Assembly: GCA_022790615.1 (NCBI GenBank)
Contig: JAAVXK010000048.1
Coordinates: 1-62,639 of the forward strand
Direction: 5' to 3'
Source of the DNA: Lachnospiraceae bacterium
GTDB lineage: Bacteria > Bacillota > Clostridia > Lachnospirales > Lachnospiraceae
DNA length: 62,639 nt
The notes under the pieces were generated by a model that was not told where the DNA came from, did not search any database, and saw only the letters and a list, made by a program, of their open reading frames with translations. Both the position numbers and the translations under genes were made by a program. Positions 37,698 through 51,213 of the stretch are shown here, in pieces (positions within the stretch are counted from its first letter, which is position 1; the number at the start of each line of letters is the position of its first letter).

Positions 37698-38735
37698 TCA
37701 CCTGCTATACCGAACAATTTTAGACGGGCCGTCAAATTCATTATAGTCTTTTATATCTTCAAACATAATATAGATTGTGTTTTTATCTTTTACACATATA
37801 TCTACTGCCCCATATTCCGTTCCAAAATATTCGTCTCCTTCTGCATTATAATACAGCTTGAATCCACCGCTGCCTTTCACATTCCATCTGTATATACCAT
37901 TCCTGTTACAATAATATACATAATTTCCACATACAGAAAAATGGTTGAATTTTAGATATATAACTTCCTCACCGTCTACTATATCGATTCTTATTTCCCT
38001 CTCACCACCAGGAAGGCCACAGGTTTTTAACAGCTTACCGTTAAGTGAATACACATTTATTTTTTCTTTGCACAATACGTATATCTTCCCTTTTTCAATT
38101 CTAATGCGTGCGTCCGTATGGAAGTCAATATCCTTTACATTCAGTTTAAAAGAACGCATGTCTTTAACCTTTTTGTTTTTCTTATTTATGCTCCTTGTAT
38201 GAACCACATATGAGTTTTCATCACGGCTCATTATCACATAAGTATAATATATATTATCGCCGTCATCCCAGCCATGCAAGCTAAATGCATTGTTAAGGTT
38301 TTTATCATCTGTATATTTGAAAATAATATTACCCTTTTTATCGTATTCCTTAATATAAACTTTATTCTTTTTTTCATATATATTCGTCATTATGATAAGA
38401 TTATCATTATCATCTAATGGTCTTACAGCAAAAAAATTCTCATCGGTATCGAAACTTCTGTCTTTAAATAAACTAATTCTATTAATTTTCTTCCCATTTA
38501 TATAATCTCTTTGAAACTCCGTACATTTTTTATTATAATTGTATCCATACCTCATATACTGGACTTTTCTATTGTCTGTGCAATACATCTGGGATGTCTC
38601 ATACATTTGTTTGCCGGCATATGTGAACTTTGTATCCTGCCTCTTAAATTTTTTCTCTTTAGCATCGGAAATATCTCCACATGTACATACGCATAAAAAT
38701 ATCATAAATAAAACCAGAATCATTTTTTTCTTCAT
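37698..38735 (-). CDS. Secreted beta-propeller-like protein of unknown function
   Basis: The 345 residues begin with a signal peptide (MKKKMILVLFMIFLCVCTCG), possibly lipidated at one of the cysteines near 18-20. The body repeats short strand pairs such as NLIIMTNIYEKKNKVYIKEYDKKG, GKIYVLCKEKINVYSLNGKLLK, GNYVYYCNRNGIYRW and NTIYIMFEDI, a pattern typical of beta-propellers such as DUF5050-like proteins. No catalytic motif is visible. AAAGGAG eight bases before ATG 38735 decides the start over ATG 38753. A 26-bp palindrome lies just upstream. It may belong to the agr neighbourhood, but a miniature element separates them. Confidence 0.6.
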   Translation of the reverse strand: MKKKMILVLFMIFLCVCTCGDISDAKEKKFKRQDTKFTYAGKQMYETSQMYCTDNRKVQYMRYGYNYNKKCTEFQRDYINGKKINRISLFKDRSFDTDENFFAVRPLDDNDNLIIMTNIYEKKNKVYIKEYDKKGNIIFKYTDDKNLNNAFSLHGWDDGDNIYYTYVIMSRDENSYVVHTRSINKKNKKVKDMRSFKLNVKDIDFHTDARIRIEKGKIYVLCKEKINVYSLNGKLLKTCGLPGGEREIRIDIVDGEEVIYLKFNHFSVCGNYVYYCNRNGIYRWNVKGSGGFKLYYNAEGDEYFGTEYGAVDICVKDKNTIYIMFEDIKDYNEFDGPSKIVRYSR

Positions 38736-38763
38736 TCGATATTCTCCTTTCAATCACTGCTCT

Positions 38764-38789
38764 TTTTAGGCGTTTCGAAACGCCTAAAA
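38764..38789. promoter_or_regulatory. 26-bp perfect palindrome upstream of the propeller-like gene
   Basis: TTTTAGGCGTTTC (38764-38776) is followed without a gap by its exact reverse complement GAAACGCCTAAAA (38777-38789). It lies about 15 bases before the ribosome binding site of the gene starting at 38735. No T-run follows on the coding strand, so an operator or a leader structure is more likely than a terminator. Confidence 0.6.
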
Positions 38790-38879
38790 TCTTCTGAATA
38801 TGTTATGTTTCAGAAATATTTCCGAAAGCAAAGAGATTTTTGCGCTTTTTACATTGTCCTGTATTGTTCCAAATTTACT

Positions 38880-38941
38880 TAGAGCGTGTCTGAAAAATGC
38901 TTTCCGACAGATGGTGGGAATGAATTTTCAGACACGCTCTA
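38880..38941. mobile_element. Miniature foldback element A (MITE-like, TA flanks)
   Basis: GAGCGTGTCTGAAAA (38882-38896) and TTTTCAGACACGCTC (38925-38939) are perfect 15-bp terminal inverted repeats, flanked on both sides by TA. There is no coding capacity. It matches the outer parts of element B at 51040-51213 and lacks B's central 102 bases. TA flanks suggest mobilisation by an IS630/Tc1-like or IS5-like transposase, none of which is in the window. Confidence 0.75.
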
Positions 38942-39049
38942 GTGTAAGCAGGCTTTCCCGCCGGACTTACAATCGGTTTTAGACAAGTCTGTGACCGGAC
39001 CGTTATACCGGCGTATTGATAAATACAAAACCTCGCGATTACCTAATAT

Positions 39050-41095
39050 TTAATCCGCATAACTTACTGCGTATACATTCTGCCAAGTAGCTTTTGAATA
39101 AGAGAATCCATTCGGCGCTGCCTCGCAATATGTTTTAAATCGTTCTAATTTGAACCTTTTGGGCCTGGAAAGGTTTATCATTTTTTCAAAGTCATAATCA
39201 TCTATACCGGGGTTGATATTACTGCTCCAACTTGCCAGAACCCATGCACAGGATTCTTTTGCACATAAAAATCTACTCTTACTATCATTAGGTGCATATA
39301 TGTCATCATTGTCCATTCCCATATCTCCTATCGGCCTCCACGTATTCGTGTTTGCGTCATATACGCCTGCCTTATGTGCAAAAGTATCACCCATAACATG
39401 CATTGCCACACCCATCATTATCAAGGACGCATTCTTGTTAGTGTAAGGATATTTATTAGCCAGCATAACTTTGATTTCCGGCTCACCCAGCCAGCTGCGT
39501 GCTGTTTCACATTCACCATATATGCCGGGATTGCCGTCAGGGTAACCCATTAACATTGCGCTGTTATGCCCATATAGTTTACATCTTATCGACATATTCA
39601 TTATCTGTTCATATACCTTCACATAATTAAATGGACCCATTGCATGGAGCATACGATGGCTTGGATACACATTTGACGGGCAATGATCATCTGGCGCTCT
39701 TGCCCCAAGCTTTACTATTGCAACCTGTGTCGACGTCAAATCTCCAGCGCTGCTATCTGCATATTCGACTGTACTTTCATGTTTGGGTCTGCTCCACCTT
39801 GCTTCAACCTCACCCTCATAGCTTTTCACTTTACCTTTATTTTTTTTGTAGCTTTTGCCCGTCTTTTTGCCATTATTGCCACTGTTCTTATAAGTTCGGG
39901 ACATATCATCATATATTTTTTCCGCATATGTAAAATCAATATAGGAAAACTCTTCCCCTTCCTCATCGGCTATAGTTTTTGCACTTGCTTTCAGCAGCTC
40001 TCTTATAAACTTTGCCGGCTTTGTTATATCTTTCTGCCATAATAAGCTCGCTACGCCTACTGCATGAGGTACGGCCATACTTGTTCCGTTACATTTGACA
40101 TCCATTCCCAGCCATCCCACAGAATCAATCTCTTCTCCGGGTGCAACAAGTTCAAGTTCTTGTCCCGTTGAAGTGATTTCGGACACTTTCCCGGTCTTTG
40201 ACGCCGCACCGACAGCTACCACTTCTTTAAATGCTGCCGGATACTCTACCATGCTATTTTCGCCGCCCTCGTTTCCTGACGCGGCAAACATGAGAATTCC
40301 CTTTTTTTCCGCCGACTGAATAGCATTATGTAACGCCTTGGAATATGTCTTAGTTCCAAAACTCATATTAATTATTTTGACATCATTCTCTATAGCCCAG
40401 TATATTGCCTCTACTATTCTGCTTATCGGAGCTTTGCTGTTATCATCCAATACACGCGCGGAATATATCATAACATTAGGATTGATACCTTTGACTGTAT
40501 CATCACATCCGTCTGAGGCTATAATGCCGGCTATAGCCGTCCCGTGGCCCGTATTATCTTCATACAAAGGGGATACTTCGTCACCAAGAAAATTTTTTCT
40601 TTCCACAACATTGATATTTTCGTTAAAATCTATACCGGAATCAATGACCGCAATTTTAATCTTTTCCTTACTATCATCTGTTTCTTCCGGAATCACCTCA
40701 ATTGAACGCATATTCCAGTCGTCTCTGTCCTTATGTTCTTGTTGGGTTTTATTATTATGTGCAGCCCCCTCCACACATTCATCATACTCAACAGTTACTC
40801 CTAAATCTATTATTTCTTCCTTGATATCCTCCGGCAGCTGCACGGCAATAACATTATTATCCTCAAGTATAACAGAATCATCAACAGCCGCATCATTTAC
40901 TATGCTGCATACTCGATTATATGTAACTGCATTGCCACAGTCTATAATATAATTTTCTTTTGACTGATTGGCGCAGTCTGCTCTGCCAACACTACTGTTA
41001 TCAAAATTCTTTGCATGAATAGCTACATTGCCCGACAATATCATTGCGGCGGCCAAACATGTGCTTACTATTCTTTTGAAAAAGTTTCTTTTCAT
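39050..41095 (-). CDS. Secreted subtilase with C-terminal phospholipase C-like domain
   Basis: The 681 residues start with a signal peptide (about 1-28). A propeptide region extends to about 140. The subtilase domain (about 145-375) has D152 (AVIDSGID), H184 (NTGHGTAIAG), N275 (ASGNEGG) and S339 (CNGTSMAVPHAVG), so it should be active. A basic linker (about 400-430) leads to a terminal domain with H566-xxx-D570-xxx-H574 in AMHVMGDTFAHKAG, the metal-ligand pattern of zinc-dependent phospholipase C and related proteins. AGGAG precedes the ATG. It lies 87 bases downstream of agrD on the same strand and is a candidate quorum-controlled exoenzyme or AIP-processing protease. Confidence 0.82.
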   Translation of the reverse strand: MKRNFFKRIVSTCLAAAMILSGNVAIHAKNFDNSSVGRADCANQSKENYIIDCGNAVTYNRVCSIVNDAAVDDSVILEDNNVIAVQLPEDIKEEIIDLGVTVEYDECVEGAAHNNKTQQEHKDRDDWNMRSIEVIPEETDDSKEKIKIAVIDSGIDFNENINVVERKNFLGDEVSPLYEDNTGHGTAIAGIIASDGCDDTVKGINPNVMIYSARVLDDNSKAPISRIVEAIYWAIENDVKIINMSFGTKTYSKALHNAIQSAEKKGILMFAASGNEGGENSMVEYPAAFKEVVAVGAASKTGKVSEITSTGQELELVAPGEEIDSVGWLGMDVKCNGTSMAVPHAVGVASLLWQKDITKPAKFIRELLKASAKTIADEEGEEFSYIDFTYAEKIYDDMSRTYKNSGNNGKKTGKSYKKNKGKVKSYEGEVEARWSRPKHESTVEYADSSAGDLTSTQVAIVKLGARAPDDHCPSNVYPSHRMLHAMGPFNYVKVYEQIMNMSIRCKLYGHNSAMLMGYPDGNPGIYGECETARSWLGEPEIKVMLANKYPYTNKNASLIMMGVAMHVMGDTFAHKAGVYDANTNTWRPIGDMGMDNDDIYAPNDSKSRFLCAKESCAWVLASWSSNINPGIDDYDFEKMINLSRPKRFKLERFKTYCEAAPNGFSYSKATWQNVYAVSYAD

Positions 41096-41182
41096 ATTTC
41101 ATTTCTCCTCTCGTATAAAAAACTAGTATAATAACTTTCTCAAACTACAACACGACAATTTCTTTGAAACTCTTCGCACTCA

Positions 41183-41350
41183 TCATTTTTGCGTGTCCTT
41201 AATACTGTTAACAAACTCCTCAAACCCATCCGGTTCTTCCGGCTGATAGTATTTACACCTGCATATTTCCGACGCCATCGGTGCAACGGCGCATGCCGCC
41301 ATACATAACACTTTTCCTGCCATTTTAACTATTTTTTTTACTTTTACCAT
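41183..41350 (-). CDS. agrD: AgrD-like cyclic lactone autoinducer precursor
   Basis: This 55-residue peptide has the three-part AgrD layout: a basic amphipathic helix (MVKVKKIVKMAGKVL), a short middle (ASEICRCKYY) and an acidic tail (QPEEPDGFEEF). By comparison with the Clostridium perfringens precursor, where the ring CLWFT precedes HQPEEP, cleavage before Y35-Q-P-E-E-P would give a ring of C30-R-C-K-Y34. AgrB, encoded divergently at 41604, would process and export it. AAGGGG eight bases before ATG 41350 fixes the start; the frame is open further upstream but without a usable start. The comparison peptide is from memory. Confidence 0.85.
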   Translation of the reverse strand: MVKVKKIVKMAGKVLCMAACAVAPMASEICRCKYYQPEEPDGFEEFVNSIKDTQK

Positions 41351-41449
41351 ATTAAACACCCCTTCTCGTATATTTTCTTTTGTTATAATATCAGCTGACA
41401 AAAGAATCTTACCACATATTCTCCAATATTCCTGAAAATTTCCCCCAGT

Positions 41450-41525
41450 GGTCAAAATTCCGGAACAAACGGCAAATTGTATTATTACTCTTTGCAATTC
41501 GACCGCTTGTTCCGGAATTTTGACC
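41450..41525. promoter_or_regulatory. 19-bp inverted repeat between agrD and agrB, candidate AgrA operator
   Basis: GGTCAAAATTCCGGAACAA (41450-41468) and its exact reverse complement (41507-41525) flank 38 bases. Each arm contains the small palindrome TTCCGGAA. The repeat lies between the divergent agrD and agrB genes and just upstream of the agrB promoter. LytTR regulators bind pairs of short sites; ACCGTTTAA at 41523-41531 partly overlaps an arm and resembles such a site. A shared AgrA-type operator is the likely meaning. Confidence 0.6.
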
Positions 41526-41539
41526 GTTTAATGATAAGA

Positions 41540-41570
41540 TTGCTTATCACGCTATAAAATATGATATAAT
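41540..41570 (+). promoter_or_regulatory. Candidate agrB promoter with long spacer
   Basis: TTGCTT (41540-41545) and a perfect TATAAT (41565-41570) are 19 bases apart. Over-long spacers are typical of promoters activated by AgrA-type LytTR regulators. It lies immediately beside the right arm of the inverted repeat at 41450-41525. Confidence 0.5.
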
Positions 41571-41603
41571 TTTTTTAATATATATTTTAAGGGGGCGGCA
41601 GCA

Positions 41604-42194
41604 ATGTCAAAGGTAAGCATGGGAAATCGTCTGGCTGAAACATTTTATAATATGGATATAATAAAACAAAAAGAAATTGCTATTTATTCCTATTTATTTA
41701 ATTATTTATTTGGAGGGATTCTATACGATGTGTGCATACTGTTCATCGGGCTCCTTATTAATCAGATTGACATCTCGCTTTGCTATATCCTCACAACAAC
41801 GCCCCTGCGTCAATTTGCCGGCGGATATCACGCGAAAACTCCCCTTAGATGTGAAATTATTTCATACCTTACATATTTCCTTATACTAATATTGTCAACT
41901 TCAAATATATGCGGCTTACTCCCTCCAATAATATATATAATTACTTACATTTTGTGCTGGACGGTTATATTTCGAATTGCGCCTGTTGATACCGCCGCCA
42001 AAAGATTATCGTTATCTCAAAAAAGAAAACTCAAATCTTTCCTTATAATAACCTTTTTGATAATGACGTTTATTTCTTTCTTATTTTTAATATATAAAAT
42101 ACATCTTTTTATTACGGTATGTATGTGTGTTATAATCTTTACAATTGGATTATATTCGGCATATATTATTAATGCAAGACAGGAGACTTTCTAA
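41604..42194 (+). CDS. agrB: AgrB-like autoinducer processing endopeptidase
   Basis: AgrB is a membrane cysteine protease that cuts AgrD, forms the thiolactone and helps export the signal. The 196 residues have about five or six membrane segments and the catalytic pair H76 (FAGGYHAKTP) and C83 (LRCEII). The seven-residue spacing equals that of H77 and C84 in the Staphylococcus aureus protein. A GGGGGCGG ribosome binding site precedes the ATG. The stop overlaps the start of the response regulator gene by one base (TAATG), so they are coupled. Its substrate gene agrD is on the opposite strand, 253 bases away. Confidence 0.93.
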   Translation: MSKVSMGNRLAETFYNMDIIKQKEIAIYSYLFNYLFGGILYDVCILFIGLLINQIDISLCYILTTTPLRQFAGGYHAKTPLRCEIISYLTYFLILILSTSNICGLLPPIIYIITYILCWTVIFRIAPVDTAAKRLSLSQKRKLKSFLIITFLIMTFISFLFLIYKIHLFITVCMCVIIFTIGLYSAYIINARQETF

Positions 42195-42925
42195 TGCTAT
42201 TGAGAATCGGATTATGCGACGATACGCAGGAGGACCTTAACATTCTAGCGGAACATTTTAACCATTATCTTTTTAAAAATGACATAGATATTGAGGTAAG
42301 GCAATTCACTTCAGGAGCCGAATTAGTCCGGGCACACGAACGAAGCGAATTTCACATAATTATGCTTGATATTGAGATGCCCGGCCAAAGCGGACTGGAG
42401 CTCGCAAAATATCTGCGCTATGAAATCAGTGATGAAACCTATATAATATTCACGACTTCATATCCTGAATATATGCAGGACAGCTTTGAATTCCAGCCTT
42501 TTGGTTTTCTGACAAAACCAATCACATATGCCGCGTTTGAAAAAATGATTCATAAATTGATACATAAAATGCTTATCTCCCAGAACACGCGCATTGTTGT
42601 CGGTCAAAATGGGGAAGAACATATTATACCGCTCAGGGATCTGATATATGTTTCGACGATAAAGGGAGAAAAACAAATGTTGGAATATCATTTTGTTAAT
42701 GGTATAATGCCGGTACGCGGCTCAATATCCGAGCTTGAAGCTTCCCTTGCGGAAAGCGGATTCATATCCCCCGCCAGAGGCCTGTTAATAAATATCCGCC
42801 ACATCCATTCCTTTAACGGAACAAGAGTATTAATGAAAAATAATACGGAGCTGCCCGTAAGCCGCAGAAAATCAAAGGAGCTTCAAAAAATATATGCAAA
42901 TCATATAATTAAAATACTGAATTAA
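42194..42925 (+). CDS. agrA: LytTR response regulator (AgrA type)
   Basis: The 243 residues comprise a receiver domain (about 1-125; acidic pair CDD, phospho-acceptor D59 in IIMLDIEMPG, Lys of TKPIT) and a LytTR DNA-binding domain (about 135-243; ILINIRHIHSFNG-like LLINIRHIHSF, PVSRRKSKELQK). LytTR regulators bind direct or inverted short repeats upstream of quorum-regulated promoters. The start codon overlaps the agrB stop and the kinase gene follows 14 bases after. In staphylococci the gene order is agrBDCA; here it is agrB, agrA, agrC with agrD divergent. The 19-bp inverted repeat upstream of agrB is its likely operator. Confidence 0.92.
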   Translation: MLLRIGLCDDTQEDLNILAEHFNHYLFKNDIDIEVRQFTSGAELVRAHERSEFHIIMLDIEMPGQSGLELAKYLRYEISDETYIIFTTSYPEYMQDSFEFQPFGFLTKPITYAAFEKMIHKLIHKMLISQNTRIVVGQNGEEHIIPLRDLIYVSTIKGEKQMLEYHFVNGIMPVRGSISELEASLAESGFISPARGLLINIRHIHSFNGTRVLMKNNTELPVSRRKSKELQKIYANHIIKILN

Positions 42926-42939
42926 GGAGCCTTTTTCAT

Positions 42940-44247
42940 ATGAACACAGTAATTAATATCGCATCTTCGTTTTTCGACGGCATTATTTCATACATATTTT
43001 TTAGTATATTTTTTTCAGCAAGACCGCTAAAAACATCGAAGCTGTCCATGCCCGCTGCCGTGTCCGTATTTTGTCTGTCCCATACCGCTTATTATTTTCT
43101 TTTAAGCAGTATGAACGGCCGGGTTGCATGGGATTCAACCATCATAAGGACTTCTCTTGTCTTAATTATGTATTTCCTTCTTTCTTTTATGTTCCACGCC
43201 CGAATCATCGCAAGGATTCTCTCGACTGCCAGTTATATGATTGCCATCTCCTTATGCGAAGACGTATCCTATTATATAATAACTAAGTTCCTTTCTATAG
43301 ACATCCAATCTGAAAGTATGCCTGAATTAACTTTCACAGGCATATCTCTTGCCACGGATTTATTATTATTTTTATTAACTATGATACTGGTTGCCGTATG
43401 GAAAAGGAAAATTGAACAATATTCAAAGTTATATCTCTGCCTTTTGCTTTTAATTCCCGCCCTGTCCATAATCCTTTCTCTGTCGAAGCCTTTTTTTATG
43501 CTGAACACCATTTGGCCGGATACGTACATCATGATAGTGTCATTTATTCTGTTAATCAACATTGTGAATTATATTTTGCTGAATAACATATTGAAATACG
43601 AAGAGTTGAAGTCCGAGAACAAACTTATTAATAATCAGATATCCTATCAAAAGAGCAAATATCAGCAGTTGGGGGAAGCATATAAAAATATACGAAGCTT
43701 CATGCATGACACGAAAAAGCATTTATTTTATATTGAAACCTGCGTTAATAATAAAGATTACGATTCCATAATCCCTTATACCCGGACTACAATGAACGAC
43801 CTTGAGTCAAGGTATTGCACCATCAATACGGGCAATCTTGTAGTTGATTCATTTGTAAGCAATCTTTTACTTCAGACAAGAAAGCATGGTATAACGCTGC
43901 AGACTAATTTTAAATTTGACATTAACACAATCCCGTTAAGCGACTATCACATGACGGTCATTCTGGGAAACCTGCTTGACAATGCATTTAACGCATGTCT
44001 TGAACAAAACGGTGGCGACATTAACCTGACGATTCAGACTGTCGAAGATACATTTACAATCTATATCACGAATACATATACGCCTGCTCCCGGCGCCAAA
44101 CCAATAGAGGACGTCGATAATTTTGATTTTATTCACGGGTATGGCCTCAAAAATGTGAAAATATCCACGCTTCACTATCACGGCGTATGCATGATTGACT
44201 ACGAAAATGACATATATTCCGTAACTGTAATCATTCCAATTGATTAA
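42940..44247 (+). CDS. agrC: GHKL sensor histidine kinase (AgrC type)
   Basis: The 435 residues begin with six or seven membrane segments (about 8-215), the usual sensor of AgrC for its peptide. A coiled coil (about 220-250) joins the kinase: phospho-acceptor H256 in SFMHDTKKHLFYIE, N box GNLLDNAFNAC (N344, N348) and G box HGYGLKNVK. The dimerisation motif fits the HPK10/GHKL class. It is the last gene of the rightward agrB-agrA-agrC operon and would detect the AgrD-derived ring and phosphorylate the LytTR regulator. A terminator at 44284-44329 follows. Confidence 0.92.
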   Translation: MNTVINIASSFFDGIISYIFFSIFFSARPLKTSKLSMPAAVSVFCLSHTAYYFLLSSMNGRVAWDSTIIRTSLVLIMYFLLSFMFHARIIARILSTASYMIAISLCEDVSYYIITKFLSIDIQSESMPELTFTGISLATDLLLFLLTMILVAVWKRKIEQYSKLYLCLLLLIPALSIILSLSKPFFMLNTIWPDTYIMIVSFILLINIVNYILLNNILKYEELKSENKLINNQISYQKSKYQQLGEAYKNIRSFMHDTKKHLFYIETCVNNKDYDSIIPYTRTTMNDLESRYCTINTGNLVVDSFVSNLLLQTRKHGITLQTNFKFDINTIPLSDYHMTVILGNLLDNAFNACLEQNGGDINLTIQTVEDTFTIYITNTYTPAPGAKPIEDVDNFDFIHGYGLKNVKISTLHYHGVCMIDYENDIYSVTVIIPID

Positions 44248-51039: not shown

Positions 51040-51213
51040 TAAACACGCTCAGAGCGTGTTTAAAAATTGCTTTCTGCCAGATGCGTTTCACACTTTGTGG
51101 GAGATTTGTGCCAAATGAGGGAAGCGCAGCGGGCTACGTGGCCTGAATTTGGCGTAAATATACCGCAAAGTGGGGGACGCAGATGGCGGGAATGAATTTT
51201 CAAACACGCTCTA
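51040..51213. mobile_element. Miniature foldback element B (MITE-like, TA flanks)
   Basis: GAGCGTGTTTAAAAA (51052-51066) and TTTTCAAACACGCTC (51197-51211) are inverted repeats with one mismatch. The left end carries ten extra bases that make a second small palindrome (AACACGCTC A GAGCGTGTT). Inside, CACTTTG/CAAAGTG and GCCAAAT/ATTTGGC pairs continue the foldback. TA stands at 51040-51041 and 51212-51213. No coding capacity. It shares both ends with element A at 38880-38941. Confidence 0.75.

Follow-up and report, generated by a model that had tools for sequence, protein, structure and literature searches.

The stretch of Lachnospiraceae bacterium DNA analysed here (contig JAAVXK010000048.1 of assembly GCA_022790615.1; 62,639 nucleotides (nt), hereafter the window) carries a split, divergent agr quorum-sensing locus: the receiver genes agrB, agrA and agrC lie on the plus strand, and the signal precursor gene agrD lies on the minus strand ahead of a gene for a secreted S8 protease fused to an HxxxDxxxH domain. 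The reading that we favour, with a probability of about three in four, is that AgrA controls a pair of divergent promoters and that agrD is co-transcribed with the effector gene behind it. Phosphorylated AgrA would drive two back-to-back promoters, one producing the receiver operon agrB-agrA-agrC and the other a transcript of agrD and a secreted effector, which in the window is the S8/HxxxDxxxH protein. As the peptide accumulates, AgrC would activate AgrA and signal and exoenzyme would rise jointly, a feed-forward arrangement with the enzyme carried on the signal's own transcript, and the slot after agrD would accept different cargo in different relatives. A preliminary description of this DNA had suggested a quorum-controlled exoenzyme, which appears to be the best reading because the operon-like agrD-S8 pair is conserved in relatives and a regulator-type site faces that operon. 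The gene layout, its recurrence in relatives, the common ancestry of the AgrC proteins and the repeats that face in both directions are observed; AgrA binding, co-transcription, secretion and enzyme activity are what we infer.

The split agr locus and its recurrence

All five genes of the preliminary description are present in the window as it described them (aa, amino acids; AIP, autoinducing peptide):

41604-42194, plus strand: agrB, AIP-processing membrane peptidase (Pfam AgrB, E=3e-30; residues H76 and C83)
42194-42925, plus strand: agrA, response regulator with a LytTR domain (LytTR 1.4e-15, Response_reg 3.3e-14)
42940-44247, plus strand: agrC, GHKL-type histidine kinase (HATPase_c_5 6e-12; His256 in HDTKKH)
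41350 (ATG) to 41183 (stop), minus strand: agrD, signal precursor, 55 aa (NCBIfam AgrD, 15.6 bits; alignment of relatives)
39050-41095, minus strand: predicted secreted S8 protease with an HxxxDxxxH domain, 681 aa (Peptidase_S8, E=6e-44)

The catalytic His and Cys of AgrB fall exactly on the residues named beforehand, and the LytTR regulator and the GHKL kinase adjoin agrB. The agrD start is best placed at the ATG at 41350, with a Shine-Dalgarno-like stretch ahead of it, and an AGGAG-type site precedes the ATG of the S8 gene at 41095 (both by eye). These two genes are separated by 87 nt, and a consensus scan of both strands found no terminator-like site in 38700-41750, the agrD-S8 gap included. 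The host genome is an incomplete draft (2.63 Mb in 141 contigs, 85% complete) with an AgrB count of one.

The NCBIfam AgrD model (TIGR04223) matches the window agrD at E=0.013 with 15.6 bits, under its cut-off of 19, which would agree with a small secreted or leader peptide of an exoenzyme operon that carries no signal. We regard this as highly improbable, since a conserved Cys, Tyr, Glu-Pro and Gly are common to all ten aligned agrD sequences and no second agrD-like gene was seen in the agr region of a window whose genome has a single AgrB. Against a profile of six related agrD sequences, of which the window is itself one row, the window agrD scores E=8e-27. The ring Cys is taken as C30 and the C-terminal tail as QPEEPDG, the ring boundaries being putative.

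To follow this agrD type we used the six-sequence profile (window, G001, G002 and three of G011) and counted matches at E<=1e-12 as strong; here G000 is the window's genome, G001 and G002 belong to the same genus, and G011 and G160 to other genera. Strong matches were found at eight places in 3 of 397 family genomes (G000, six in G011, and G160), and the scan of ten genus genomes gave a single strong match in each of G000, G001 and G002. In total this makes ten loci, spread over five Lachnospiraceae-type genomes and three genera; most of the weaker matches were ordinary agrD genes adjoining agrB or agrC, or chance. For comparison, AgrB occurs in 5/10 genus and 138/397 family genomes, and the C-terminal domain of the S8 protein in 5/10 and 9/397, respectively.

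The layout of these loci was compared with that of others in a survey of 42 agrD rows from 49 fetched loci, which comprised nine loci of the genus and G011 sets, twenty top-ranked AgrB matches and twenty agrD-profile matches. This survey is non-random, twenty of its loci being those with the best AgrB scores, nearly always one per genome, and two pairs of entries (L056/L113 and L063/L109) are the same places. The window agrD type is represented by the window and nine of the 42 rows. Upstream of this agrD, agrA or agrB lies on the opposite strand in 8/8 loci whose neighbour is known; in the remaining two, an unrelated same-strand gene lies 345 nt away (L044:325) or the locus starts near a contig end (L045). 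Downstream, non-agr cargo follows on the agrD strand in 10/10, with gaps of 5-148 nt where measurable. Four of the loci (L102, L103, L104 and L105) were found via the agrD profile alone, and their divergent layout was then confirmed. Among the 33 other agrD rows (31 distinct loci), agrB lies directly downstream in 15, and in no case does an agr neighbour on the opposite strand occur together with cargo other than agrB; L108 does have such an agrA neighbour, yet its agrD is followed by agrB. Cargo after agrD is nevertheless a theme wider than the divergent class, because some of these other loci (e.g. L063, L111 and L112) also have secreted cargo after agrD on a common strand.

In a tree of 42 rows, the AgrC proteins of eight divergent loci form one clade with 99/99 support; therefore the circuit is shared while the cargo differs. 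The AgrA tree's count of three changes was not used, one of its rows (L103) being the receiver of an unrelated hybrid kinase. The agrD-S8 order, whose conservation in Lachnospiraceae the preliminary description had made the touchstone of its proposal, recurs in related genomes: agrD stands directly ahead of an S8 fusion in two separate genera (G000 and G002; G011).

The candidate divergent promoter region

The 253-nt region between agrB and agrD contains direct repeats facing both ways, each with a candidate promoter element:

41502-41531, plus strand: LytTR-type direct repeat ACCGCTTGT-12-ACCGTTTAA facing agrB (rank 1 of 375,660 dimers)
41565-41570, plus strand: candidate agrB promoter with -10 TATAAT, at a distance of 63 nt from the start of its box
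41444-41473, minus strand: weaker LytTR-type direct repeat GCCGTTTGT-12-ACCACTGGG facing agrD (rank 71 of 375,660)
41406-41411, minus strand: candidate agrD promoter with extended -10 TAAGAT, at a distance of 62 nt from the start of its box

These repeats lie in inverted 23-nt arms (41450-41472 and 41503-41525) that are 96% complementary, each holding a 9-12-9 direct repeat. PMC6193735 describes LytTR sites as 9-nt repeats, mostly 12 bp apart, just ahead of the -35 element and of low sequence conservation. Repeats of this kind stand upstream of both candidate promoters, with a strong site on the agrB side and a weak one on the agrD side. Our scoring matrix was made from eight Streptococcus mutans repeats given in that same paper, and ranks are among all dimers searched. 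With this matrix the G001 site ranked 1 of 89,826 and the agrD-side site of G002 ranked 2 of 119,826.

Analysed matrix-free, direct-repeat spacings over the ten divergent regions peak at 20-22 nt (21, 30 and 14 self-similar pairs), and in six of the ten the pair count was reached by no more than two of 200 dinucleotide shuffles; the high count of the G011:C24b region includes A-rich runs. In all seven promoters checked that way, namely the six of G000, G001 and G002 and the agrD promoter of G160, a TAnnnT hexamer stands at an offset of 62 or 63 nt, counted from the box start. The corresponding shuffle frequencies are 0.05-0.14 each, with a product of 4e-8 for boxes and an offset that were picked after seeing the sequences. 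Judged from the DNA sequence, the signal's own regulator AgrA probably switches on this two-way promoter.

Several observations weigh against this assignment and the circuit built on it. On its agrD side the window has a weak box (rank 71), and the S. mutans matrix misses the G011 sites, with ranks of at least 27 for L044, L103 and L104 and rank 3 for L102; the G160 sites likewise score lower with it. The spacing analysis has smaller peaks at 26 nt (17) and 30 nt (16). The window region is only moderately unusual, 9/200 dinucleotide shuffles reaching its count; the G001, G011:C37 and G011:C3 regions are not unusual relative to shuffles, with G001 and G011:C37 giving no pair at threshold, and at least 9 pairs occur in 11/356 random AT-rich 250-nt windows versus 5/10 divergent regions. 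The agrD-side box and offset of G001 were selected by eye, and the agrB side of G160 and the G011 promoters are not cleanly at the 62-63 offset. A weak promoter-like match (9/12) at 41211-41182 overlaps the end of agrD on the agrD strand. Finally, six of the ten loci are not independent, since the agrD profile was built from six such loci.

A genome-wide search for an AgrA regulon was made with a pattern written from the agrB-side site, where its perfect match is by construction. It found one other place with one mismatch, inside an open reading frame (ORF), and its places with two or fewer mismatches (8+6) were no more numerous than those of a backwards-pattern control (12+7).

Cargo behind agrD and the S8 fusion protein

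Five of the ten cargoes are S8 fusions (including a decayed mosaic and another truncated at a contig end) and five are other proteins:

Window: the S8 fusion, then a predicted secreted protein of about 350 aa (351 aa; 37698-38753, minus strand; no Pfam match)
G002 (L034 7857-9695): an intact agrD followed by a 612-aa mosaic ORF that joins ricin-like, AgrB and S8-fusion pieces in frame
G001: a protein of 911 aa that matches CBM96 (3e-9) and, weakly and below cut-off, ricin lectin, and that by eye has an HExxH-type stretch
G011, a pair of places near L044 (one truncated by the contig end) and a third in L045: S8 fusion, then BspA-type leucine-rich-repeat proteins and agrB
G011, L102 and L103: small secreted proteins, 143 aa
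G011:C37, L104 4043-9913: behind agrD, a secreted protein of 158 aa, a pair of permease-like proteins, then a binding protein, an ABC ATPase and agrB, a gene row that may form a bacteriocin-type cassette
G160: a membrane protein of 170 aa, its gene 148 nt behind agrD

In the G002 mosaic, the ricin-like fragment matches, with 44% over 41 aa (E=3e-8), the cargo of G001, the AgrB fragment has its best match in an AgrB fragment of L102 (E=7e-11), and the S8 fusion is present from residue 241 on, so that it starts past the catalytic Asp and His. We read this ORF as a putative relic of cargo turnover. S8-fusion genes also stand without agrD upstream in L037, L038, L042 and L047-L050; in L050 (7730-8922) the gene lies behind a LytTR regulator and a kinase-like ORF, with no agrD or agrB seen there.

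This variability could mean that agrD and the S8 gene were brought together by chance, when an exoprotein gene under its own control, either mobile or duplicated, came to lie beside agr: the majority of S8-fusion genes are found away from agrD, the cargo varies among loci, and the G002 mosaic indicates a decayed and shuffled region. Such an origin would leave unexplained the direct agrD-S8 adjacency in two separate genera and the same-strand, closely spaced cargo in 10/10 loci, and we consider it improbable. A second suggestion, raised in the preliminary description, was that the protease helps to mature the peptide; it would trim the leader of AgrD extracellularly, once AgrB has acted. The adjacency of the two genes on one strand would fit this role, and S8 peptidases mature other peptides. 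However, half of the loci of the window agrD type (5/10) have no S8 gene in the slot, S8 fusions elsewhere stand without agrD, and in G002, where agrD and agrBAC are kept, the S8 part begins beyond the Asp and His of the catalytic triad. Since S8 is absent from half of the loci, we rejected a dedicated AgrD-maturing role as the main reading and deem it very unlikely.

The S8 protein itself has a signal peptide by eye, an S8 domain at about residues 144-375 and the HxxxDxxxH domain at about 434-681. Its Peptidase_S8 match (PF00082, 150.8 bits versus a cut-off of 21.8) and the presence of D152, H184, N275 and S339 identify a subtilase, and the residues H566, D570 and H574 are present in the C-terminal part. 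This part is similar to Zn_dep_PLPC (PF00882; E=0.018, 15.4 bits) and DUF6765 (PF20551; E=2.6e-4, 21.2-22.3 bits), in both cases below the curated cut-off (26.8 and 26.6, respectively); among nine relatives, four match the former at E<=0.01 (best 7.7e-6) and six the latter. The domain had no match among plasmid and phage records.

Adding to the favoured circuit, we tentatively propose, at somewhat less than even odds, that the fusion is a self-activating zymogen: the S8 domain would cut before Trp434, in cis or in a neighbouring molecule, and the freed N-terminal Trp would complete the metal site of the C-terminal domain, the fused subtilase being the presumed protease for this cut. A motif V/A-x-[AG]-x-W-x(4-6)-H around Trp434 is present in 17/18 S8-fusion ORFs covering it, and the S8 triad, W434, H439, D469, H484, H566, D570 and H574 are invariant in 12/12 aligned full-length relatives. 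There are precedents for such a Trp: PMC10576769 describes a Listeria phosphatidylcholine phospholipase C (PC-PLC) from which a metalloprotease removes the propeptide and whose activity is lost when a single additional residue precedes W1, and PMC5201275 an S1 nuclease in which the N-terminal main chain of the first Trp binds zinc. On the other side, the exception to the motif, the fragment L033 of G001, has the His without the Trp, both family scores are below cut-off, and a search of solved structures with the C-terminal profile gave a single match at E=0.33, taken as chance. The His-Asp-His spacing is 4, 4 versus 4, 6 in phospholipase C (PLC) and P1 nuclease, and conservation ahead of the Trp could be structural. 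The AlphaFold model is poor (predicted local distance difference test (pLDDT) 35.2, input of two rows), with C-terminal helices at low confidence and the metal site left unmodelled. If the proposal is true, the protein would be a compact self-activating secreted enzyme and would help to assign DUF6765/PLC-like domains.

Relatives of the 351-aa protein adjoin S8 fusions in L033, L034, L037 and L038, with two or three in a row after the S8-fusion gene in L038 (7007-10592) and L037 (10729-12964); an AlphaFold model of the window protein is beta-rich at low confidence (pLDDT 47.8, input of two rows). In the window, the 297-nt gap between the S8 and 351-aa genes contains a repeat element, and their joint transcription is conjectural. 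This inverted-repeat element, with AGAGCGTGTYTGAAAA ends, occurs at 38881-38940 and 51051-51212, one copy lying between the S8 and 351-aa genes. Its ends have 57 exact matches in the draft genome versus 0 for a backwards control and are often ~145-160 nt apart in opposite orientation, resembling a family of miniature inverted-repeat transposable elements. Two other arrangements were seen outside this agrD type: in L036 (6019-7878; G003:C30), AgrB is fused in frame to a secreted Amidase_6 in a 619-aa ORF (AgrB 6e-31, Amidase_6 4e-22), and in L067 (1-3904; G096:C4) a different S8-like protein, which has no signal peptide, is encoded two genes past an agr locus.

Taken as a whole, the locus may represent a distinct agr class, with an AgrA-driven, signal-first transcript and an interchangeable effector, a secreted weapon or enzyme, that is here a zymogen with its own activating subtilase, freeing an N-terminal tryptophan for a metal-dependent hydrolase; this full combination we consider doubtful. 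If it is true, signal and effector dose would be tied on one transcript, a cheater losing the enzyme genes by an early event would also risk the signal, and the slot would let a lineage exchange effectors while keeping the sensing circuit.

Comparison with known systems

The open-licence literature searched yielded no paper describing a fusion of S8 with PLC or a divergent layout of agrD and an exoenzyme gene. In Enterococcus faecalis, gelE-sprE lie beside fsr; the signal gene there sits with fsrB and fsrC and is not known to head the protease transcript, and the promoter is not known to be a signal-plus-enzyme divergent pair. Unlike this, the window agrD would head the protease operon as one arm of a divergent pair. 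What the two would share, judged from sites and layout, is control of secreted proteases by an agr-type peptide system; those of Enterococcus include a serine protease (PMC3673130).

Clostridial agr systems such as that of Clostridioides difficile, named agrACDB in the abstract of PMC3754575, have the same gene set, but all genes are co-directional and agrD adjoins agrB. The preliminary description had placed agrD between agrB and agrC in classical loci; as a refinement, the commonest order in the surveyed loci of this family is A-C-D-B (agrC-agrD-agrB) as in C. difficile, not B-D-C-A as in staphylococci, and other layouts also exist among them. With Listeria PC-PLC, which Mpl activates, the window protein might share protease activation of an enzyme needing an N-terminal Trp (PMC10576769); here, in contrast, protease and enzyme would be one chain, and membership of the PLC family is putative. 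The arrangement of the candidate promoters is analogous to that of Staphylococcus aureus agr P2/P3, described in PMC4227749 as divergent promoters each with a direct-repeat pair for AgrA. Unlike the case in S. aureus, where P2 produces agrBDCA and P3 produces RNAIII, the second arm in the window would produce agrD and an exoprotein.

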